Shown in pieces: positions 1,788 to 31,846 of a stretch of DNA of 31,846 bases (position 1 is its first letter; each line of letters begins with the position of its first letter). The translations under genes and the position numbers were made by a program. Under the pieces are notes generated by a model. The model was not told the DNA's origin. It saw only the letters and a program-made list of their open reading frames with translations, and made no database searches. The stretch comes from a virus: positions 1-31,846 of IMG/VR virus record IMGVR_UViG_3300042467_000627, one strand, 5' to 3'.

Positions 1788-2333
1788 ATGGAAGATTTTT
1801 TTCTTTTAGACGATATCGCTGAGGCAGATGCTGGTCTGCTGTCGTTTCCGCTTGTGCTGGAGTTTGAAGGCTCTGTGCCCAATGCCGCTCTATTTTTGAA
1901 GAATGAGCCTAACCGCCCACTGAAGAAAGAAGAGAAGGAGTGGGTGCGAGAAGCCGTAAAAAACCCCACCAACCAAGAGATCATCAACGCTCCGCCCTCT
2001 GCCCCCGCCCTCCGTGCGTTAGAAAAGCAACTTGAAAACTACAGCGGCACCATGCCGGTCACAAAGGAGCAGTGGCAGAACTATGTGATGAAGCAGTATT
2101 TTCTGCAGTCACGCGACCCCGACCCAAAAGTTTCCAAGCCAGCGCTGGATGCCATAGCCAAGACAAATTTAGTAGGGCTTCACAATGATGTGCAAGAGAT
2201 CAACATCAACACAAAAAGTACGATAGAGCTCGAAGCCACCCTCGCACAAAAGCTGCAGCAAATCCTGAGCAAAAAAGTAAACAACGAAAACGAAGATGAA
2301 GTGATAGAGGCGGAGTGGAGCGAAGCAGAGTGA
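1788..2333 (+). CDS. Probable terminase small subunit (TerS), 181 aa
   Basis: This is the probable DNA-recognition subunit of the packaging motor. The call rests mainly on position (first gene of the late operon, overlapping terL) and on size. The middle contains DPDPKVSKPALDAIAK, a motif style I associate with phage small terminases, followed by a helical, coiled-coil-prone C-terminus (about 125-175) that would suit ring oligomerisation and TerL binding. The acidic tail overlaps the terL start. The only ATG near the start is at 1788, just after an in-frame TGA at 1779. No SD is visible upstream; the leader is pyrimidine-rich instead, which is odd for this genome. No clear helix-turn-helix was identified by eye. 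Confidence 0.6.
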   Translation: MEDFFLLDDIAEADAGLLSFPLVLEFEGSVPNAALFLKNEPNRPLKKEEKEWVREAVKNPTNQEIINAPPSAPALRALEKQLENYSGTMPVTKEQWQNYVMKQYFLQSRDPDPKVSKPALDAIAKTNLVGLHNDVQEININTKSTIELEATLAQKLQQILSKKVNNENEDEVIEAEWSEAE

Positions 2334-3841
2334 ACGAAGAAGACATCACAAAAGCGTTGGCGCTAGCCTCTCCAAAGGAAAAAACAGAACTCCTCACACT
2401 GCTGGATGAGCTCGAAAAGCGTAAAACCCGCGAAGAGGCACAAGAAGACTTTTTAGCGTTCGTTAGAACGCAGTGGCCTGACTTTATTAGTGGCTCACAT
2501 CACAGGCGCATTGCCAAACTCTTCGAGGACGTAGCGGCAGGTAGAAAGAAGCGCATAATAATAAACCTCGCTCCTCGACACACAAAATCGGAGTTTGCAT
2601 CGTATCTGTTCCCGGCATGGTTCCTCGGCAAGCACCCCAAGAAGAAGGTCATGCAGGTGTCGAATACGGGGGAGTTGGCTGAGGGCTTTGGTCGTAAGGT
2701 GCGAAATCTATTTGAGACGGAAGAGTTTAGAAGTATTTTTCCTGACGTAGAGCTACGCGCCGACTCCAAGGCGGCAGGGCGATGGAATACCAATCACGGA
2801 GGTGACTATTATGCTACGGGTGTGGGTGCAGCTCTGGCTGGCCGTGGTGCTGATCTATGTATTATCGACGACCCTCACACAGAATCAGAAGCGGTCTCGG
2901 CAGCTTTTAACCCCGGAATATATGATAAGGTCTATGAGTGGTTCACTACGGGACCCCGCCAGCGACTCCAGCCGGGAGGAGCCATAATCATCGTCCAAAC
3001 ACGATGGTCCCTCAGAGACTTGACGGGGCAGATCATCGACCATGCTGCCAAAGATGCAAAAGCCGATCAGTGGGAGGTGTTTGAGTTCCCCGCCATTCTC
3101 CCGAGTGGCAACCCACTGTGGCCTGAGTTTTGGAAAATTGAAGAGTTAGAGGCTACCCGAGCGACGATCAACAATGCAGGGAAGTGGAACGCTCAGTACC
3201 AACAAAACCCTACGTCAGACGAGAGTGCCATAATAAAACGTGCGGACTGGCAGATATGGACAAAAGACAAACCACCGCCGATGGACTACCTCATCATGGC
3301 GATGGACACTGCATTTGAAGCGAAGAAGAGCGCCGACTACAGCGCAGCCGTTATCTTTGGGGTGTGGACAAACGATGAAGATGGTGGACAGCCTAACCTC
3401 ATGCTGTTGGAGGCTTGGAGAGATAAGCTAGAGTTCCCGGAGTTAAAGCAGAAAGCGAAGGAGTTGTACAAGGAGTGGGAGCCGGACAGTGTGATTATCG
3501 AAAAGAAGGCATCCGGGGCTCCGCTGATATATGAGCTGAGAAGGATGGGCATCCCCGTGCAGGAGTACACACCGAGTCGAGGGAATGATAAGATAACGAG
3601 ACTGAACGCGATTGCAGACATTTTCGCTTCAGGTAAGGTCTGGGCTCCAGATAGGCGATGGGCAGATGAGTTGATAGAAGAGGTCGCGTCGTTTCCCGCA
3701 GGGCGGTATGATGACTTCGTAGACTGCACCAGCTTAGCATTAGCACGGTTTCGTGCGGGTGGTTTTATAGGTACAGCCAATGACCAAAGTGAGGAGGAGT
3801 ACAATGGTGGTTTTTATCGGCGTAGAGCCGCGTATTATTAA
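2330..3841 (+). CDS. terL: Terminase large subunit (TerL), 503 aa
   Basis: ATP-driven DNA packaging motor and nuclease acting at the portal. The N-terminal ATPase domain carries a Walker A-like LAPRHTKSE (about residues 80-88) and Walker B LCIIDDPH (about 176-183). The C-terminal RNase H-like nuclease domain shows acidic positions in MAMDTAF (D near 326), IIEKKASG (E near 391) and DDFVDC (D near 461-462). Walker A has Thr where Gly is usual before Lys-Ser. I chose GTG at 2330 because it overlaps the terS stop as GTGA and has SD GGAG nine bases upstream. An in-frame GTG at 2315 is possible and adds five residues. The C-terminal part fits the TIGR01630-type phage terminase family. Confidence 0.95.
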   Translation: MNEEDITKALALASPKEKTELLTLLDELEKRKTREEAQEDFLAFVRTQWPDFISGSHHRRIAKLFEDVAAGRKKRIIINLAPRHTKSEFASYLFPAWFLGKHPKKKVMQVSNTGELAEGFGRKVRNLFETEEFRSIFPDVELRADSKAAGRWNTNHGGDYYATGVGAALAGRGADLCIIDDPHTESEAVSAAFNPGIYDKVYEWFTTGPRQRLQPGGAIIIVQTRWSLRDLTGQIIDHAAKDAKADQWEVFEFPAILPSGNPLWPEFWKIEELEATRATINNAGKWNAQYQQNPTSDESAIIKRADWQIWTKDKPPPMDYLIMAMDTAFEAKKSADYSAAVIFGVWTNDEDGGQPNLMLLEAWRDKLEFPELKQKAKELYKEWEPDSVIIEKKASGAPLIYELRRMGIPVQEYTPSRGNDKITRLNAIADIFASGKVWAPDRRWADELIEEVASFPAGRYDDFVDCTSLALARFRAGGFIGTANDQSEEEYNGGFYRRRAAYY

Positions 3842-3853
3842 GGAGGAGAGATT

Positions 3854-4297
3854 ATGGTAGCCGGTATAGTGGAAGCGATGGCGGGGCAGGTAGAAAGAGC
3901 GCTTAAACAACAAGAGGAAATAAGCACTATGCTAAAAGGACCAACGAAACCGCTCTGGCAAAATGAGAAGATGGGGTTAAAGCCAGAACAATACAACGCA
4001 TGGGAGAAGTACATTAAAGAAGAGTACACCGATGCAGAGAACGAATTAGTAAAAGAAACAGAAAAAAGAGAAAGCGCAGAGAAAAAAGCAAATGACTACC
4101 AAATAGGCGGGTCACACTACAAAGACAAGCGAGTGCAGCCGTGGGATGTGATCGACACTCTGCCTCATGCACAGGCTATCGGCTTTTACAAGGGCAATGC
4201 GATCAAGTATATAATGCGGGCTGGAGATAAAGGCCCAGCAAAGGAAGACTACGAAAAGGCCAAACATTATCTTGAGAAGCTCCTCGAAATTTTATAG
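3854..4297 (+). CDS. DUF3310 domain protein, possible nucleotide kinase (T7 gp1.7-related)
   Basis: The C-terminal half (about residues 82-145) carries the DUF3310 signature: YQIGGSHYKDKRVQPWDVI, then IGFYKGNAIKYIMRAGDK and a final helix. The domain also occurs in T7 gp1.7, a dTMP/dGMP kinase, so nucleotide phosphorylation is a plausible role, but the family is diverse. The N-terminal 80 residues are a highly charged, Glu/Lys-rich helix that may be a coiled coil. A strong SD (AGGAGGAGA) precedes the ATG. A nucleotide-metabolism domain between terL and portal is an unusual position; it may be a passenger gene, or the helix may tether it to head assembly (inference). Confidence 0.8.
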   Translation: MVAGIVEAMAGQVERALKQQEEISTMLKGPTKPLWQNEKMGLKPEQYNAWEKYIKEEYTDAENELVKETEKRESAEKKANDYQIGGSHYKDKRVQPWDVIDTLPHAQAIGFYKGNAIKYIMRAGDKGPAKEDYEKAKHYLEKLLEIL

Positions 4298-4307
4298 GAC
4301 ACACCAC

Positions 4308-6818
4308 ATGGCAATCGAAAGAACACCGCAACCCGGGCTGTTAGGCGCATATCTTGAGAAGCAGGGGGATATAAATAACCCACTGCAGCAGGACGATCAA
4401 GACGAGCCTATTGAGATTGTCATTGGCCCTGAAGACGGCGAAACGCTATTTGAGATCGAGGTAACTGAGGAGGAAGCGCCTAGCTTTGAAGCGAATCTTG
4501 CTGAGTTTATTGACGACTCTGAGCTTGAAGCGATATCCAGTGATTTGCTGGACGATTTCGATAACGACAAGAATGCGCGTAAAGAGTGGGAAAGGACCTA
4601 CATTGATGGTCTGGATTTGTTGGGGCTCTCCATAGAAGAGAGGACTGAGCCGTGGGACGGTGCCTGTGGTGTATATCATCCCATGCTGACGGAAGCAGCG
4701 ATCAAGTTCCAGTCGGAGATGATTTCGGAGACTTTCCCGGCACAAGGCCCTGTCAAAGCGCGGTTGGTGGGTAAAGCTGACAGAGAGACAGAAGAAGCCG
4801 CAGCACGAGTGGTAGCCGATATGAACTACCAACTCACAGAGAAAATGCCTGAGTTTCGTACCGAGCATGAGAAGATGCTGTGGAGCCTTGCGCTGGCAGG
4901 CGCTGCCTTTAAGAAGGTGTATTTCGACCCCACACTCAACCGCCAGACCTCAGTCTTTGTACCCGCAGAGGACATCTATATTCCTTATGGAGCGTCCAGT
5001 GTTGCTACATCGGAGAGGATTACGCACTCCATGCGTAAGACCAAGAATGAGGTCAAGAAGCTACAGTATGCTGGGTTCTACAGAGACGTGGACTTGGGTG
5101 AGCCGACCAAGCAGATTGATGAGATACAGAAGAGAAAGGACGATGACTCTGGGTTCTCCTCCTCTTATGATGATCGGTTCAACATTCTTGAGATGCAGGT
5201 CGAGCTCGACTTGCCGGGGTTTGAGGATACCGATGAAGAAGGGGAGTCTACAGGCATTGCCCTGCCATACGTTATAACGCTCGAAAAGTCCTCTGGCACC
5301 GTGTTGGCTATCAGAAGGAATTGGGACGAGTATGACGACTTCAAAAACCCAAGACAGCACATCGTACAGTACAACTACATCACGGGGTTCGGTGCTTACG
5401 GTTACGGTCTGATTCATCTTATCGGTGGCTTTGCTAAGTCAGCTACCAGCATCGTAAGACAGCTTGTAGATGCAGGCACGTTGTCCAATCTTCCCGGTGG
5501 GTTGAAGACTAACGGTATGAGAATCAAGGGAGACGACACTCCTATCATGCCGGGTGAATGGAGAGATGTAGACGTAGCGAGCGGCACTGTCAGAGATAAC
5601 ATCATGCCGCTCCCCTATAAGGAGCCCAGTGCGACGCTGTTCCAACTCCTGCAGAATGTGGTGGATGAAGGACGCAGGCTGGCGGCGGTAGCCGATGTAA
5701 AGTTTGACTCCATGAATGGTGAGGCCCCTGTGGGCACCACGTTGGCAATTCTTGAGCGCACCATGAAGGTCATGAGTGCAGTACAGGCGCGGGTCCATGC
5801 GTCCATGTCTCAGGAGTTCAAACTTATCGCGGCCCTCATACGCGACTACACTGCACCTGACTATAGCTACGTCCCAGACAGTAAATCCGAGCCCAGTGCG
5901 AAAAAGTCAGACTACGAGCAGACGGACATCATCCCCGTCAGTGATCCAAATGCCACAACGATGGCACAGAGGATTTTGCAGTATCAGGCAGCGATTCAGT
6001 TGGCACAGCAGGCTCCACAAATCTATAACCTTTCAATGCTGCATCGGCAGATGCTTGAGGTCATGGGTGTCAAGGATGCCGATAAGATTGTAGAAACGGA
6101 AGATGACCTACTGCCAACAGACCCTGTTACAGAGAATATGGACGTTCTCAACATGAAACCTGTGAAGGCATTCTACGAACAAGACCACGAAGCGCATATT
6201 CAGGTCCACCAAGCCTTTATGCAAGACCCGAATGTAGCGCAGATTATGGGGCAAAACCAGAACGCTCAAGCCATTATGCAGGCAGGACAGGCGCACTTGG
6301 CGCAGCATCTTGGCTTTGCCTATAGAAAGAGAATTGAAGCCCAGTTGGGTGTTCCTCTGCCTCCTCCTGACCAAAAGATGTCCCCAGAAATGGAAGCTCA
6401 CGTCTCTGGATTGTTGGCGCAAGCGGCTCTTCAGGTACAGCAGCAGTCTCAGATTGAAGCACAGGCGGCACAGGCACAACAAGCGGCTCAGGACCCGATT
6501 GTACAGCGGCAAATGATGGAGATGCAGCTAAAACAGCAAGAATTGCAGGCCAAAGTACAGATCGAAATGGCTAAAATTCAGACGCAAAAGGAGATTGCGG
6601 AGCTTGATAATCAGACGAAAATCCAGCTTCAACAGCAAAAAGACGGTGCTGAAGGCGTAAAACTTGGCTTTAACGCAGCAAAAGAATACATCTTCAAGGA
6701 AGACGAGCGGGTACAAGGAGGTATGGCTAAGCAAGAGGATCGCGCACACTCAAGCGCAGAAAAGGACAAGGACCGAGCGTTCAACGCGATGCAAAAACAG
6801 GAGAAGGTAAATGACTGA
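4308..6818 (+). CDS. Portal protein, 836 aa
   Basis: The dodecameric ring at the head vertex through which DNA enters and leaves. Identified by position after terL, by large size and by portal-like features: an acidic N-terminus, YHPMLTEAAIKFQSEMISE near residue 120, a long alpha/beta body and a late region with VGTTLAILERTMKVMSAVQ, typical of large (P22-like) portals. The last 200 residues are Gln/Ala-rich and coiled-coil forming (from about 640), recalling the C-terminal barrel of P22-type portals. ATG at 4308 with AGGA upstream is preferred over a TTG 36 bases earlier, which overlaps the previous gene. The end overlaps the next gene by eight bases. It is longer than P22 gp1 (725 aa), mainly in the C-terminal coil. 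Confidence 0.88.
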   Translation: MAIERTPQPGLLGAYLEKQGDINNPLQQDDQDEPIEIVIGPEDGETLFEIEVTEEEAPSFEANLAEFIDDSELEAISSDLLDDFDNDKNARKEWERTYIDGLDLLGLSIEERTEPWDGACGVYHPMLTEAAIKFQSEMISETFPAQGPVKARLVGKADRETEEAAARVVADMNYQLTEKMPEFRTEHEKMLWSLALAGAAFKKVYFDPTLNRQTSVFVPAEDIYIPYGASSVATSERITHSMRKTKNEVKKLQYAGFYRDVDLGEPTKQIDEIQKRKDDDSGFSSSYDDRFNILEMQVELDLPGFEDTDEEGESTGIALPYVITLEKSSGTVLAIRRNWDEYDDFKNPRQHIVQYNYITGFGAYGYGLIHLIGGFAKSATSIVRQLVDAGTLSNLPGGLKTNGMRIKGDDTPIMPGEWRDVDVASGTVRDNIMPLPYKEPSATLFQLLQNVVDEGRRLAAVADVKFDSMNGEAPVGTTLAILERTMKVMSAVQARVHASMSQEFKLIAALIRDYTAPDYSYVPDSKSEPSAKKSDYEQTDIIPVSDPNATTMAQRILQYQAAIQLAQQAPQIYNLSMLHRQMLEVMGVKDADKIVETEDDLLPTDPVTENMDVLNMKPVKAFYEQDHEAHIQVHQAFMQDPNVAQIMGQNQNAQAIMQAGQAHLAQHLGFAYRKRIEAQLGVPLPPPDQKMSPEMEAHVSGLLAQAALQVQQQSQIEAQAAQAQQAAQDPIVQRQMMEMQLKQQELQAKVQIEMAKIQTQKEIAELDNQTKIQLQQQKDGAEGVKLGFNAAKEYIFKEDERVQGGMAKQEDRAHSSAEKDKDRAFNAMQKQEKVND

Positions 6819-6993
6819 GCTAGAACTGCTTAGCAAAAAGTTAAAAGAGGCCATTATCCCGCGACGAGACGCACTGACTAAAGGAGCCCTTGCTTCTTGG
6901 GAAGATTACAAATACCTGACCGGAGTGATCGCTGGGCTTCAGGCGGCATTGGATGCTGTAGAAGAAGCGCAGAAGAGGTACATCGAAGACTAA
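6811..6993 (+). CDS. Small helical protein of unknown function, 60 aa
   Basis: It starts within the end of the portal gene with SD GGAGAAGG just upstream, so it is probably translated by coupling. The sequence (from MTELELLSKKLKEAIIPRRD) is almost entirely helical and charged, with an Ala/Leu-rich C-terminal half that could form a coiled coil. It contains no Cys and no membrane segment. Similar tiny helical genes often follow portal genes in short-tailed phages and are usually of unknown role; a head-assembly partner is possible. A hairpin at 7002-7032 follows the stop. Confidence 0.7.
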   Translation: MTELELLSKKLKEAIIPRRDALTKGALASWEDYKYLTGVIAGLQAALDAVEEAQKRYIED

Positions 6994-7032: not shown

Positions 7033-7060
7033 TCTTAACGGCCTGCTAATAGAGGACATC

Positions 7061-7453
7061 ATGACGTTTCATGCAAATGTAGATATAGAAGCCACGCTTA
7101 AAACAGCGGAGGAATTGGGCGATAAACTTCCCGATCCGGTTGGCTACCAAATGCTGGTCATCAAACCAAAAATAGAAGAAGTCACAGCGGGAGGTATCAT
7201 CAAACCTTCTGAGTTTCTTCGTAAGGAAGAAGCGGGGTCTGTTCTCGGCCTTGTGCTTAAAATGGGTGATTTGGCTTACCGAGATGAAGCTAAATTTCCT
7301 ACCGGAGCTTGGTGCAAAGTTCATGACTTTGTGTTGATTGGAGCGTATCGCGGTTCACGTTTCAGTGTCGATGGAGAAGAGTTCACGATCATAAACGACG
7401 ACATGATCTTGGGCACTATCAAGGACCCGTCAGGGATTAACCGTGCTTATTAA
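7061..7453 (+). CDS. Phage-encoded GroES-like co-chaperonin (cpn10 fold), 130 aa
   Basis: Residues about 29-121 follow the GroES pattern: GYQMLVIKP at the first strand, TAGGIIKP at the mobile-loop position (about 42-49), then AGSVLGLVLKMGD, WCKVHDFVLIGAYRGSRF, SVDGEEFTIINDDMILGTI. These match the order of core strands in cpn10 proteins, including the 'DGEEY.I..E.DILA' end. It is longer than GroES (97 aa) because of an N-terminal extension of about 25 residues. The mobile loop carries Ile-Ile-Lys where GroES has Ile-Val-Leu. The known precedent is T4 gp31, which replaces host GroES on GroEL to fold the capsid protein. Its place between portal and scaffold suggests the same job. Good SD-driven start after a short gap. 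Confidence 0.85.
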   Translation: MTFHANVDIEATLKTAEELGDKLPDPVGYQMLVIKPKIEEVTAGGIIKPSEFLRKEEAGSVLGLVLKMGDLAYRDEAKFPTGAWCKVHDFVLIGAYRGSRFSVDGEEFTIINDDMILGTIKDPSGINRAY

Positions 7454-7462
7454 GAGGTAGTT

Positions 7463-8386
7463 ATGAGTATAGAAGAAGGCGTACCTGTAGAAGTTGGGAT
7501 TGAGGACGAAACTCCCGAAATCGAGATTATTGACGATACCCCTGAAGAAGACCGAGGCCGAAAGCCCCTGCCAGAGTCTGAAAATGACCAGCAGGAAGAA
7601 GAGCTCGATACGATCTCTGCGGGTGTTAAGAAGAGGATCAATCAACTAAGCCACCGTTACCACGATGAGCGTAGGGCCAAAGAAGCGTTAGAGAGGCAGA
7701 ACCAAGAAGCCATAACGCTAGCGCAGACCATCCTCGCTGAAAATCAGAAGTTAAAGCAGACGCTCACTTGGGGTCAAAAAGAGTACCTTAACGAAGCCAA
7801 TGCCAAGATTGAGTACGCAGAAAAACTTGCGGAAGATAGGTACCGTAAGGCGTATGAATCAGGTGACACAGAAGGTGTGCTTAACGCACAGAAAGAGCTG
7901 CAACAGGCAGGACTTCAAAGAGAGCGCTTGGCAAACTTTTCGCCACCTATCCCAGAACCTGAAGAAAATACTTTACAAACGTACCAACAGCCTGTATATA
8001 ATGCGCCACAACCTGCTTACACACAGCCTAGCTCTCCCCCTGTAGACGCAAAAGCTGAAGAATGGGCAGCGAGAAATCCTTGGTTTGGAGAAGACACAGA
8101 GATGACCTCTCTTGCTTATGGTCTCCATTCCAAATTGGTAAATTCGGGTGTCGATACGCAGTCAGATGAATACTATGCGGCTATCGACAAACGCATGAGG
8201 GAAGTGTATCCAGAACATTTTGGTAAGGCTAAGAAGTCGTCGCCCGTAGCCCCAGCCGGTAGGAGCACCTCAGTTAAAAAAGTGACGCTAACCGCTACTC
8301 AGGTAGCACTTGCAAAAAGACTCGGAGTGAGCTTGGAAGATTACGCCAAGCATGCCGCTAAATTGGAGAAACGCGCAAATGGCTAA
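7463..8386 (+). CDS. Probable scaffolding / head assembly protein, 307 aa
   Basis: The acidic N-terminus (from MSIEEGVPVEVGIEDETPE) is followed by a long charged coiled coil (about residues 50-155: GVKKRINQLSHRYHDERRAK onward). A Pro/Gln/Tyr-rich linker follows (about 160-195), and a basic helical C-terminus ends with a small helix-turn motif. Acidic, coiled-coil-rich proteins with a basic C-terminal end, placed just before the capsid gene, are the usual layout of scaffold proteins, whose basic tail binds the capsid shell. No protease motif is seen, so processing cannot be read from this gene. SD AGAGGT precedes the ATG. The end overlaps the next gene by eight bases. Confidence 0.75.
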   Translation: MSIEEGVPVEVGIEDETPEIEIIDDTPEEDRGRKPLPESENDQQEEELDTISAGVKKRINQLSHRYHDERRAKEALERQNQEAITLAQTILAENQKLKQTLTWGQKEYLNEANAKIEYAEKLAEDRYRKAYESGDTEGVLNAQKELQQAGLQRERLANFSPPIPEPEENTLQTYQQPVYNAPQPAYTQPSSPPVDAKAEEWAARNPWFGEDTEMTSLAYGLHSKLVNSGVDTQSDEYYAAIDKRMREVYPEHFGKAKKSSPVAPAGRSTSVKKVTLTATQVALAKRLGVSLEDYAKHAAKLEKRANG

Positions 8387-8837
8387 TGTTATGGACAGAA
8401 CCCAAAGAACCAATGAGACACGGGAAAAAGAGGTACGACCAGTATCTTGGAAGCCTGCTCACGATCTGCCAACCCCTGCTCCGCAGGATGGTTACGTCTT
8501 TCATTGGAAGCGTGTTTCTATGATGGGCACCGCTGACCCCGCTAATATGGCTAAAGCTCGACGTGAAGGATGGGAGCCTTGCAAAGCTGAGGATCATCCA
8601 GAAATGTTGTCAGATTTCGCTGCATTCGGTCTGAAACCGCAGGGTCTTATTGAGATTGGCGGTCTGGTGCTCTGTAAGTCTACTCTTGAGAACGCTAAAG
8701 CTCGTAAAGCCTACTATGAAGGGCAGACAGCCGCGCAGACTCAAGCTGTAGATCAAAACTTTATGCGTGAAAATGACCCGCGTATGCCTCTCTTCAAAGA
8801 AAGCAAGTCGCGTGTTTCTTTCGGTAGCGGTTCCTAA
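8379..8837 (+). CDS. Conserved-looking head-region protein of unknown function, 152 aa
   Basis: The start ATG at 8379 has SD GGAG ten bases upstream and overlaps the scaffold gene end; an in-frame ATG at 8352 would overlap by 35 bases and has a poorer site. The protein has a basic N-terminus, then YVFHWKRVSMMGTADPANMAKA with REGWEPCKAEDHPEM, then a short domain with IEIGGLVLCKSTLENAKARK and a Gln-rich helix. The 'GW.P.' motif and the position between scaffold and decoration genes recall small proteins next to capsid genes in short-tailed marine and freshwater phages. The role is unknown: possibly a head-completion or scaffold partner. No membrane segment. Confidence 0.7.
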   Translation: MANVMDRTQRTNETREKEVRPVSWKPAHDLPTPAPQDGYVFHWKRVSMMGTADPANMAKARREGWEPCKAEDHPEMLSDFAAFGLKPQGLIEIGGLVLCKSTLENAKARKAYYEGQTAAQTQAVDQNFMRENDPRMPLFKESKSRVSFGSGS

Positions 8838-10551: not shown

Positions 10552-11499
10552 GTGAAAAACGTAATCTATGTGATTCGTAATGTGGTCAACGGTAAATTCT
10601 ATGTAGGCAGCACCGTTGATGCTCGTGTGAGGTTCCAAGCGCACAAAAGGCGGTTAAAAAAAGGAACGCACCAAAGCCCTCATCTGCAAGCCGCATGGAA
10701 TAAGTACGGCGAGGAATGTTTTAAGTTTGAGGTAGTGGCTAGCGTTGAGGATAGGGACGAGTTACTCGCCGTTGAGCAAGTTTGGTTAGACGAACACGCG
10801 GGAAAGACCCATTGCTACAACTGGGCTGCAGATGCTAGCGCCCCAATGCGAGGAAAAAAACATACTTCTGAAGCCGTAGCTAAAATGTCGCTAAAACATG
10901 TGCCCAAAGGTGAAGAGCACTACCGTTTTGGTAAATCGCTAGAGGAAGAAGTTAGGAAGAAAATAGGAGACACGCAGAGGGGTGTACCTAAAGCGCCGGG
11001 GCGAAAAGTTTCGGAAGAAGGCAGAGCCAACATAGCGGCTGCAGCAAAGAGAGGTAAAGAGTGCCATTTTTATGGCAAGCGGCCCACAAACGCCGACGAC
11101 CTACAGAAAGCTGTTCATGCGGTACTTCCAGATAGGACAACCAAGGTGTATAGCAGCCTTACGGAAATGCGAGACACACTGGGGCTAGCTATAGGAACAA
11201 TCATTCGCGCCTGTAAGTCGGGTAAACCTATTGTGTTTGGCCCCCACGCCGGTTGGGTGCTGTCGTATGTGGATGGAGAAAGAAACTTAGCTCCAGAAAT
11301 CCCAAAGGAATACTTAGCCTATCCACGCACTAGACAAGAGGCTAAAGCTACCGGGGCCAAACACTATTTCACAGGTATTCCCTGCGATAGAGGCCATATC
11401 TCTCCACGTAAAACAAAAGGCACATGCGTTGCTTGTATGAAAGAAGACTACAAAAAGGACAATGACAGGCGCAAACAGAAGATGCTTGACACCCCCTGA
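10552..11499 (+). CDS. GIY-YIG homing endonuclease with NUMOD-type and zinc-ribbon DNA-binding regions, 315 aa
   Basis: Free-standing homing endonuclease, a selfish gene that cuts related phage DNA lacking it. The N-terminal GIY-YIG domain shows VIYVIRN and KFYVGST, catalytic-type R27 in VRFQAHKR, and E75 in LLAVEQVWLDEH. The middle has NUMOD3-like repeats (MRGKKHTSEAVAKMS and similar Gly-Lys-rich turns) and then a helix-turn-helix-like NUMOD1/IENR1 segment (SSLTEMRDTLGLAIGTIIRA). The C-terminus has a small zinc ribbon, C278-H282-C292-C295 (PCDRGHI ... CVACM). The start is GTG at 10552 with SD GGAGGT. It has its own promoter and follows the capsid terminator. Codon use (AGG, AGA, AAA) differs from the capsid gene, consistent with mobile origin. 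Confidence 0.92.
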   Translation: MKNVIYVIRNVVNGKFYVGSTVDARVRFQAHKRRLKKGTHQSPHLQAAWNKYGEECFKFEVVASVEDRDELLAVEQVWLDEHAGKTHCYNWAADASAPMRGKKHTSEAVAKMSLKHVPKGEEHYRFGKSLEEEVRKKIGDTQRGVPKAPGRKVSEEGRANIAAAAKRGKECHFYGKRPTNADDLQKAVHAVLPDRTTKVYSSLTEMRDTLGLAIGTIIRACKSGKPIVFGPHAGWVLSYVDGERNLAPEIPKEYLAYPRTRQEAKATGAKHYFTGIPCDRGHISPRKTKGTCVACMKEDYKKDNDRRKQKMLDTP

Positions 11500-29555: not shown

Positions 29556-29572
29556 ATTTAGAGGATACGAAC

Positions 29573-31846
29573 ATGGCATCTCCTCCCGGCCAAAAGCCTG
29601 TCACATTCTCAGAGAGCACTGTAAGAGACCCCATAGCAGAACAGAAATGGGCATACCTAACAGCGCATGACTACTCTCCGTTAAACATTCTGACAGCCGA
29701 CGCTTCTCGAAAAGCGCAGATTCTAGCGGGTATGGCAAAAAATGACCCGAAAGCGCAGAAAGCGTTCTTTGGGCGCAAACCTACCGCTGCAGATTGGGCT
29801 AACTTGAAGGGAGGCACGGGGCAACCTATTCCTCAGCCTACACAAAAAGCCGCACAAGGCGGGCTGATGGCTCTGCGGGGGTACTCTTCGGGTGGTTCTC
29901 CAAAAGCAACAAATGCGCCCAAAAAGGACGCACCCAAAAAGGACGCACCCAAAAAGAATGCCCCTGAAAAACAAAAACCCCCTGCTAAACCCAAGCTAGC
30001 CCCGCCGCCTAAAAATGAAACCGCGCAGCAGCGTAGCGAACGCTTGATGGCCTTTGAAACTGCAGGCGGAAAGCTAAACAAGCAGCAGAAAGGCTACGTG
30101 GCTAACTTTGCGGAGTACGCCGATAAAGGCTATCCCATAAACCCGAAGACGGGTATGCCCACTCCGCCTAAACTTCCTTCAAATGCTACCAAAGCCCAGA
30201 GAGAGGCGGCAATGGAGAAGTTTACTGCGGATACTAATCTCAACGTAAACGATAAAGGTAAGCTGGCTCCCAACACGGGCGGTCCTAACCCGAACATCTC
30301 CTTAGCCGATAGTCTTACACAGACCCCTGTAGGGTTTGACCCGCAGTCCTTGAAATCGACTATGGCTAAGGACGGGAAAACAGTAATCCCGCCCAGCTTT
30401 ATGACTGACCCCTATGCGGGCATAACAAACCCTTTCTATCGTCAAGCGATAGACTACCAAAAAAATATGAAGATGCCCGGTGAGTATGGGCAAGCCTCTG
30501 ATATGTATCGAACGGCTGGGGCCGGATTAGAAAGTCTGGCTGGGTACAAACCACAAGATGTTTCTTACCAAAATGCTTCGGCTGAAAGAGCCAGTGCAGA
30601 AAAAGCCGCCGCCGCACAGATGGGCAGTATTGCTAATGTCAGTGCGGAACGCGCAGCGGCAGAAAGAGCTCAAGCCTCTCAAATGGCCGCTATTGCTGAT
30701 GTTAATGCACAGCAAGTAGACCTCGGGCAGTATAACGTAAACGCCTCGCAAATGCAGCGCCCAGAGGATGTAACCGCTAAAGAACTGCAGCGGTATCAGA
30801 TGGACAGCGCAAACCCCGTCACCACCCAAGCACTCGAAGCCTATCAAATGGCAGGGCCGGGGTCTTGGACCGATGAGGGTGTGTCTAGCAAATACATGAG
30901 CCCCTACATGCAGGGAGTCATTGACATCTCAAAGCGCGAAGCGGAGAGAGACTATACCAAGCAGATGAATGCACTGAATGCCAAGGCTGTATCGGCTGGA
31001 GCGTTTGGTGGGTCTAGGCAGGCTTTGGAGCGCTCTGAAGCACAGCGTAATTACAACGAGCAGTTGCAAGACATTCAAACGCGAGGTCTGCAGCAAGCTT
31101 ACGAATCAGGTCGTTCTCAGTACACTGGGGAATTAAGCATGTCGCAGCAGGCGGCTCTGCAGAATCTGCAGTCTAAACTCTCCACACAGTCGCAGTCTTC
31201 GCAGCAAGAGTTGCAAGCGATGCTCTCTAACCAGAACATCGACTACCAGACCAAAGTGCAGAACCTACAGGCTATGCTGGGTGTACAGTCTCAAGAAGCA
31301 CAGCAGATGCTCAATGCGTCACTGGCTAATCAACAGGCTGAAATGGTAACTAGCCAAACCAATGCACAACTGGCACAGCAGGCAGCACTGGCTAACCAAG
31401 GCGTAAACTCTCAAGGTGCTCTGGCTAATCAAGCAGCAGCGCTTCAAGCGGCTCTAGCTAATCAACAAACACAGTTTGGCACAGGGCAGTTCAATGCTGG
31501 GGCGCAGAATCAAGCCTCTCTTGCTAATGCTCAGTTGGGAACACAGGCCAATCTAGCCAACCAACGGGCGGCACTTGAAGCGGCTCTGGCTAATCAGCAG
31601 ACTCAGTTCGGTGTGGGCTCTTTGAATGCAAATCTGGCGAATCAAACCAACCTGCAGAATGCTTCGCTGGGAACACAGGCGGCTCTTCAAAATGCTCAGT
31701 TGGGTACAAACGTCAACCTTGCCAACTCCCAATACGGCCTGCAGTCGCAGATGGCTAACCAACAAGCGGGGCTTCAAGGAAATCAGCAGAACATCGGCGC
31801 TTTTAACGCTATGGGCAACATGGCTCAAGGCTTAGGGGCTATAGGC
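29573..31846 (+). CDS. Very large internal/ejection virion protein, partial (runs off right edge)
   Basis: Open from ATG 29573 (SD GAGG upstream) to the window end, at least 758 residues with no stop. Residues 1-100 include FGRKPTAADWANLKGG and a GGLMALRGYSSGG turn. A Lys/Pro/Ala linker with KKDAP repeats follows at about 105-145. The middle has SSKYMSPYMQGVIDISKREA and SAGAFGGSRQALERSEAQRN (about 440-490), a motif I recognise in large phage virion proteins. From about 580 to the edge the chain is an Ala/Asn/Gln/Leu-rich repeat such as AALANQQTQFG, with an 11-residue period suggesting a long right-handed coil. The likely role is an ejected internal virion protein, comparable in role to T7 gp15/gp16 or P22 gp16/gp20. 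The true end lies beyond this window. Confidence 0.85.
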   Translation, partial: MASPPGQKPVTFSESTVRDPIAEQKWAYLTAHDYSPLNILTADASRKAQILAGMAKNDPKAQKAFFGRKPTAADWANLKGGTGQPIPQPTQKAAQGGLMALRGYSSGGSPKATNAPKKDAPKKDAPKKNAPEKQKPPAKPKLAPPPKNETAQQRSERLMAFETAGGKLNKQQKGYVANFAEYADKGYPINPKTGMPTPPKLPSNATKAQREAAMEKFTADTNLNVNDKGKLAPNTGGPNPNISLADSLTQTPVGFDPQSLKSTMAKDGKTVIPPSFMTDPYAGITNPFYRQAIDYQKNMKMPGEYGQASDMYRTAGAGLESLAGYKPQDVSYQNASAERASAEKAAAAQMGSIANVSAERAAAERAQASQMAAIADVNAQQVDLGQYNVNASQMQRPEDVTAKELQRYQMDSANPVTTQALEAYQMAGPGSWTDEGVSSKYMSPYMQGVIDISKREAERDYTKQMNALNAKAVSAGAFGGSRQALERSEAQRNYNEQLQDIQTRGLQQAYESGRSQYTGELSMSQQAALQNLQSKLSTQSQSSQQELQAMLSNQNIDYQTKVQNLQAMLGVQSQEAQQMLNASLANQQAEMVTSQTNAQLAQQAALANQGVNSQGALANQAAALQAALANQQTQFGTGQFNAGAQNQASLANAQLGTQANLANQRAALEAALANQQTQFGVGSLNANLANQTNLQNASLGTQAALQNAQLGTNVNLANSQYGLQSQMANQQAGLQGNQQNIGAFNAMGNMAQGLGAIG

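Follow-up and report, generated by a model that had tools for sequence, protein, structure and literature searches.

Among phage-encoded co-chaperonins, gp31 of phage T4 has been explained by the large size (56 kDa) of the capsid protein that it folds, gp23, and it is devoid of the roof hairpin (PMC6318259). In HTVC023P-type pelagiphages, a GroES has been counted among the 13 core genes (PMC9599517). Phages EL (gp146) and AR9 encode a Cpn60 of their own, and the EL chaperonin shows no functional interaction with Escherichia coli GroES (PMC7185714). Here, a 130-residue GroES (Cpn10) protein is described from a 31.8 kb virus fragment of IMG/VR (IMGVR_UViG_3300042467_000627; this whole stretch of 31,846 nucleotides is referred to as the window). 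Its gene, at positions 7061-7453, is linked near-obligately to one lineage of major capsid protein (MCP).

The product of this gene is a genuine Cpn10/GroES, and the gene is intact. It matches Pfam Cpn10 (PF00166) with an E-value of 1.2e-6 (score 28.9 bits, cut-off 21.1) and the co-chaperonin GroES profile PHROG_3188 with 4.9e-13. The AlphaFold2 model, a monomer built on 118 phage homologues, reached a mean predicted local distance difference test (pLDDT) score of 87.6, compared with 42 when only 14 homologues were supplied. All 35 top matches of the model in a Foldseek search of the Protein Data Bank (PDB) were Cpn10 or Cpn10-like, including 4pj1 as the best (2.6e-6), 8wuc (7.6e-6; template modelling score 0.56 by query and 0.74 by target) and T4 gp31 (1g31, 2.9e-3). 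The gene differs from that of a close relative (L009) by 45 synonymous and 12 non-synonymous codon changes, indicating purifying selection, and thus is not a chance open reading frame (ORF). The first-pass annotation, made from the letters alone, had proposed a GroES-like co-chaperonin, and both the profile matches and the cpn10 fold of the predicted subunit, which resembles solved GroES structures, bear this out. Moreover, the protein belongs to a known phage GroES type that is already annotated in cultured phages. Homologues with 35-49% identity (tblastn) are present in HTVC023P-type pelagiphages, Roseobacter phages CRP-901 and CRP-902, Planktothrix phage Pag-Yong1 and phage DSL-LC04 (PHROG_3188), with a lengthened mobile loop and in the same head-module slot, between portal and scaffold genes, that the window gene occupies.

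Relatives were gathered by the MCP alone, yielding 21 records with 67% to 28% MCP identity; the MCP alignment used for scans was an 8-sequence subset, the full 16-sequence set being too diverse. A profile search over whole records revealed exactly one Cpn10 match above the cut-off in each of the 15 distinct MCP-bearing phage records, and in 13 of them it lies just upstream of the scaffold and MCP genes, as in the window. The absence of GroES in divergent relatives, suggested by blank tblastn results below 56% MCP identity, was rejected, since the profile search finds Cpn10 in all of them. Hosts reached by the lineage include Pelagibacter, Roseobacter, Caulobacter, Alcaligenes, Planktothrix and a methanogen. 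In IMG/VR, GroES was found upstream at 54/54 loci identified by their MCP (at least 3.2 kb of upstream flank required), and the MCP was found downstream at all 44 loci identified by their GroES (at least 3.5 kb of downstream flank required). On contigs of bacterial and archaeal genomes, GroES was upstream of the MCP at 47 of 49 loci. The two misses were rejected as true GroES-less loci: in L289 the sequence leads into N's and what appears to be a solute-binding protein of the host, in L292 the MCP is flanked by a host RNase E/G, and both look like mis-joined contigs of metagenome-assembled genomes, likely assembly chimeras of phage head genes and host genes in public genomes. GroES was present at none of 84 control MCP loci (80 found by T7 gp10A and 4 by Mu gpT), a sample in which the T7 set is narrow and the Mu loci are few, and which is no survey of all phages; this indicates that GroES is no general neighbour of capsid genes. 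In Phenylobacterium sp. J367, a single 4.8 Mb contig of one isolate (NZ_JAJONA010000001.1) carries two MCP loci (L331 and L337), each with its own Cpn10 match (L364 and L374), besides the host GroES (L350). The lineage can thus be integrated as a prophage.

The inheritance of GroES was compared with that of other head genes across a non-redundant set of 62 head modules. There, the distances for GroES were correlated with those of the MCP (0.75), portal (0.75) and terminase large subunit (TerL; 0.48), all beyond 999 permutations, and the higher values for MCP and portal than for TerL indicate that GroES travels with the head module. In a GroES tree of 68 rows, phage and cellular labels need two changes, at a poor resolution (125 columns, with 32 of the 65 inner branches open). 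The copy at L039 100-456 in BK063670, a virus ascribed to Methanomicrobiales, groups with cellular GroES and has the short cellular loop. It was possibly acquired separately, which remains uncertain because of its long branch.

Like cellular GroES, the window protein has the Pfam Cpn10 domain, the beta-barrel, the roof length and the first two hydrophobic residues of the contact tripeptide, whereas it differs in a mobile loop longer by four residues, a lysine at the third contact position, extensions at both termini and the roof sequence YxDxxKFPxGxWC. The N-terminal extension had been recognised earlier: 25 residues precede the Cpn10 proline, versus 4 in E. coli GroES and a median of 31 in the phage family. 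In a joint alignment of 132 phage proteins and 94 cellular GroES, the segment that starts at the first contact residue and reaches to the next strand spans 19 residues in 129 of the phage proteins and 15 in 93 of the cellular ones. The lone 'cellular' protein with a 19-residue segment (L461) is a second Cpn10, and its nearest row is a Phenylobacterium prophage copy. The Ile-Ile-Lys that had been pointed out as an altered mobile loop sits at E. coli I25-V26-L27. Lys or Arg occupies its third position in 88 of the 132 phage proteins; all 94 cellular proteins, a set that was drawn mainly from two phyla and is no census, have Ile, Leu or Val there. The pelagiphage and Roseobacter phage proteins have a hydrophobic third residue (VIL, LIL, ILL), while Pag-Yong1 has IIR. 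The roof comprises 20 residues in most phage homologues versus 19 in cellular GroES; 117 of the 132 phage proteins carry a YxDxx[KRT][FYW] motif there, against 0/93 cellular ones, and 98 of the 132 have [PA]WC, with Trp-Cys in no cellular protein. As the phage rows are related, the loop and roof counts are not those of independent events. Among 41 genomes of Bacteroidota, many carry a second, weak Cpn10 match (~30-50 bits) besides a normal GroES.

It is probable that this protein serves the folding of head-module proteins during head production. Cpn10 subunits would form a GroES-like ring, the ring would cap the host's own GroEL, and head-module proteins, most likely the gpT-like MCP of the same gene cluster, would fold in the chaperonin cage. 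No Cpn60/GroEL was found in the 15 MCP-bearing phage records, the window itself being only a fragment, and host GroEL is therefore the only obvious partner. In this respect phages of this type, with Cpn10 only, differ from EL and AR9, with which they share phage chaperonin biology in general. The closer parallel is T4 gp31, which had been invoked in the first-pass annotation. The analogy holds for function, as both are phage-encoded co-chaperonins of the Cpn10 fold with a proposed use of host GroEL. It does not extend to sequence (the hidden Markov model of the phage family gives gp31 only 3.5 bits), to the roof, which the window protein keeps, or to gene location, since the gp31 gene lies outside the T4 head-gene cluster and the window gene inside the head module. 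The 'bigger cage' proposed for gp31 was also rejected here, the MCP having 302 residues (~33 kDa). Because its loop departs from that of cellular GroES, and its roof and slot from those of gp31, the window GroES is regarded as a variant. The further proposal that it is dedicated to the capsid protein agrees with the strong statistical association with the MCP lineage set against the controls, while the client could also be the scaffold or other head proteins.

Several points weigh against a GroES that caps host GroEL for the MCP. Ordinary GroEL-GroES can accommodate an MCP of this size, leaving the need for a private GroES unexplained. In two divergent records, Cpn10 is outside the portal-scaffold slot, being upstream of TerL in BK063670 and elsewhere in the genome in MW202601. 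Partial correlations of GroES distances are small (0.24 for the MCP versus 0.29 for the neighbouring gene at 8352), so the MCP is not singled out; MCP-specific covariation is unsupported, and these values indicate travel with the module, with no sign of contact with the MCP. Finally, I25, V26 and L27 of GroES make hydrophobic contacts with helices H and I of GroEL (PMC5653362), and in E. coli GroES the L27A substitution lowers affinity more than 1000-fold while L27D abolishes GroEL binding (PMC5575113). Lys48 therefore predicts a weak or differently built contact.

The ordinary size of the MCP, which requires no special cage, would also suit a general take-over of the chaperonin, in which the phage protein replaces or supplements host GroES late in infection for many phage and host proteins, and the slot merely provides the strong late expression of the head cluster. 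gp31 can generally substitute for GroES in E. coli (PMC6318259), and the core status of GroES in HTVC023P-type phages (PMC9599517) points in the same direction. Nevertheless, such a take-over is unlikely, given that GroES is associated with a single capsid lineage in widely differing hosts, that its slot is almost invariable and that T7- and Mu-type loci lack it.

The effect of substitutions at the third contact, together with the Lys or Arg found there in most phage homologues, raises the question of whether GroEL binding has been lost, at least in the Lys/Arg-loop class, so that the Cpn10 fold acts as a head-assembly or scaffold-interacting factor. The Gly-Gly preceding the tripeptide is lost in some members (L020, L042 and others), and the predicted scaffold is the immediate neighbour. 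Yet within the Lys/Arg class contact residues 1 and 2 are hydrophobic at frequencies of 1.00 and 0.97, about one third of the phage family, encoded at the same slot, has a fully hydrophobic tripeptide, and the barrel and roof length are kept, which renders a GroEL-independent role improbable. If the protein does cap GroEL, a native lysine and a lengthened loop, seen in the light of the L27 data, indicate a different contact, and the pattern of residues suggests that the longer loop may compensate for the lost third hydrophobic contact. A large hydrophobic residue occupies position 53 in 76% of the Lys/Arg class versus 36% of the remaining proteins, and acidic residues make up ~95% at positions 56-57 versus 61% and 34%, although this pattern may partly reflect shared ancestry. 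An extra hydrophobic residue of the longer loop (F52/L53 in the window) might replace the third contact, or Lys48 might be paired with the conserved E56-E57 in a salt bridge. Tentatively, the Lys/Arg-type GroES might grip GroEL via a re-registered loop, with position 53 of the insertion as the new contact, giving an orthogonal or faster-releasing co-chaperonin that serves one capsid fold with the GroEL of many bacterial phyla. That the gene is a neutral passenger, an old host-derived copy hitch-hiking in the head cluster, would fit the way its divergence tracks the head module but is highly improbable in view of the purifying selection, the presence of the gene in every intact genome tested (to an MCP identity as low as 28%) and the cell-like Cpn10 at another site in BK063670, which hints, with the uncertainty of its long branch, at replacement over loss.

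The head genes of the window follow the order TerL, a DUF3310 protein, portal, a small ORF, GroES, the predicted scaffold, two conserved genes and the MCP (Table 1). The gene after GroES is putatively assigned as the scaffold from its position and its acidic, coiled-coil-like sequence. The description of the co-chaperonin gene as lying beside the scaffold and capsid genes is therefore accurate as to the former, as far as that label goes, whereas the MCP is located ~2 kb downstream; the gpT type assigned to the MCP agrees with its Mu gpT-like and Phage_capsid_4 matches. Downstream of the MCP, a GIY-YIG homing endonuclease with a NUMOD3 motif (10552-11499, plus strand) is inserted before the next structural gene, a gap of only ~100-150 bases in several relatives. 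The final 2.3 kb of the window (29556-31846) contains no plus-strand ORF of at least 70 amino acids and only scattered short minus-strand ORFs, in contrast to the dense coding of the rest.

Table 1. Features of the GroES gene, its product and the surrounding head module in the window.
Feature	Position	Strand	Basis
Terminase large subunit (TerL)	2315..3841	+	PHROG_38 9e-105
Portal protein	4272..6818	+	PHROG_1216 2e-30
Small ORF, 60 amino acids, between portal and GroES	6811..6993	+	Similar-sized small genes in relatives
Shine-Dalgarno-like AGAGGA, 4 bases 5' of the ATG start	7051..7056	+	Direct reading
Phage co-chaperonin GroES/Cpn10, 130 amino acids	7061..7453	+	Pfam, PHROG, AlphaFold2, Foldseek
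N-terminal extension, residues 1-24, predicted helix 9-22	7061..7132	+	Alignment and model
Mobile loop, residues 40-62	7178..7246	+	Joint alignment
GroEL-contact tripeptide Ile46-Ile47-Lys48 (E. coli I25-V26-L27)	7196..7204	+	Alignment
Roof hairpin, residues 69-89, signature YxDxxKFPxGxWCK	7265..7327	+	Alignment
Predicted scaffolding protein	7463..8386	+	PHROG_28737 (unknown function); between GroES and MCP in relatives
Conserved head-module gene	8352..8837	+	PHROG_36003
Conserved head-module gene, 209 amino acids	8877..9506	+	Conserved in head modules of relatives
MCP, gpT-like, 302 amino acids	9520..10428	+	Phage_capsid_4 2.4e-12; Mu-like_gpT 7.9e-9; PHROG_371 2e-21

To the known phage GroES type, this analysis adds the near-absolute linkage to the MCP, the lengthened and altered loop and the retained roof with a signature of its own. 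So far, T4 gp31 and the oversized T4 capsid protein have supplied nearly the whole argument for why some phages carry a GroES. The presence of GroES with an MCP of ordinary size in essentially every intact genome, across unrelated hosts, indicates that the size explanation is not general. A lysine at the contact where Ala or Asp destroys the binding of E. coli GroES poses a clean and small question, namely whether such loops bind GroEL and which residue would stand in for Leu27, and cultured relatives exist among the phages of Caulobacter, Alcaligenes, Roseobacter and Pelagibacter.
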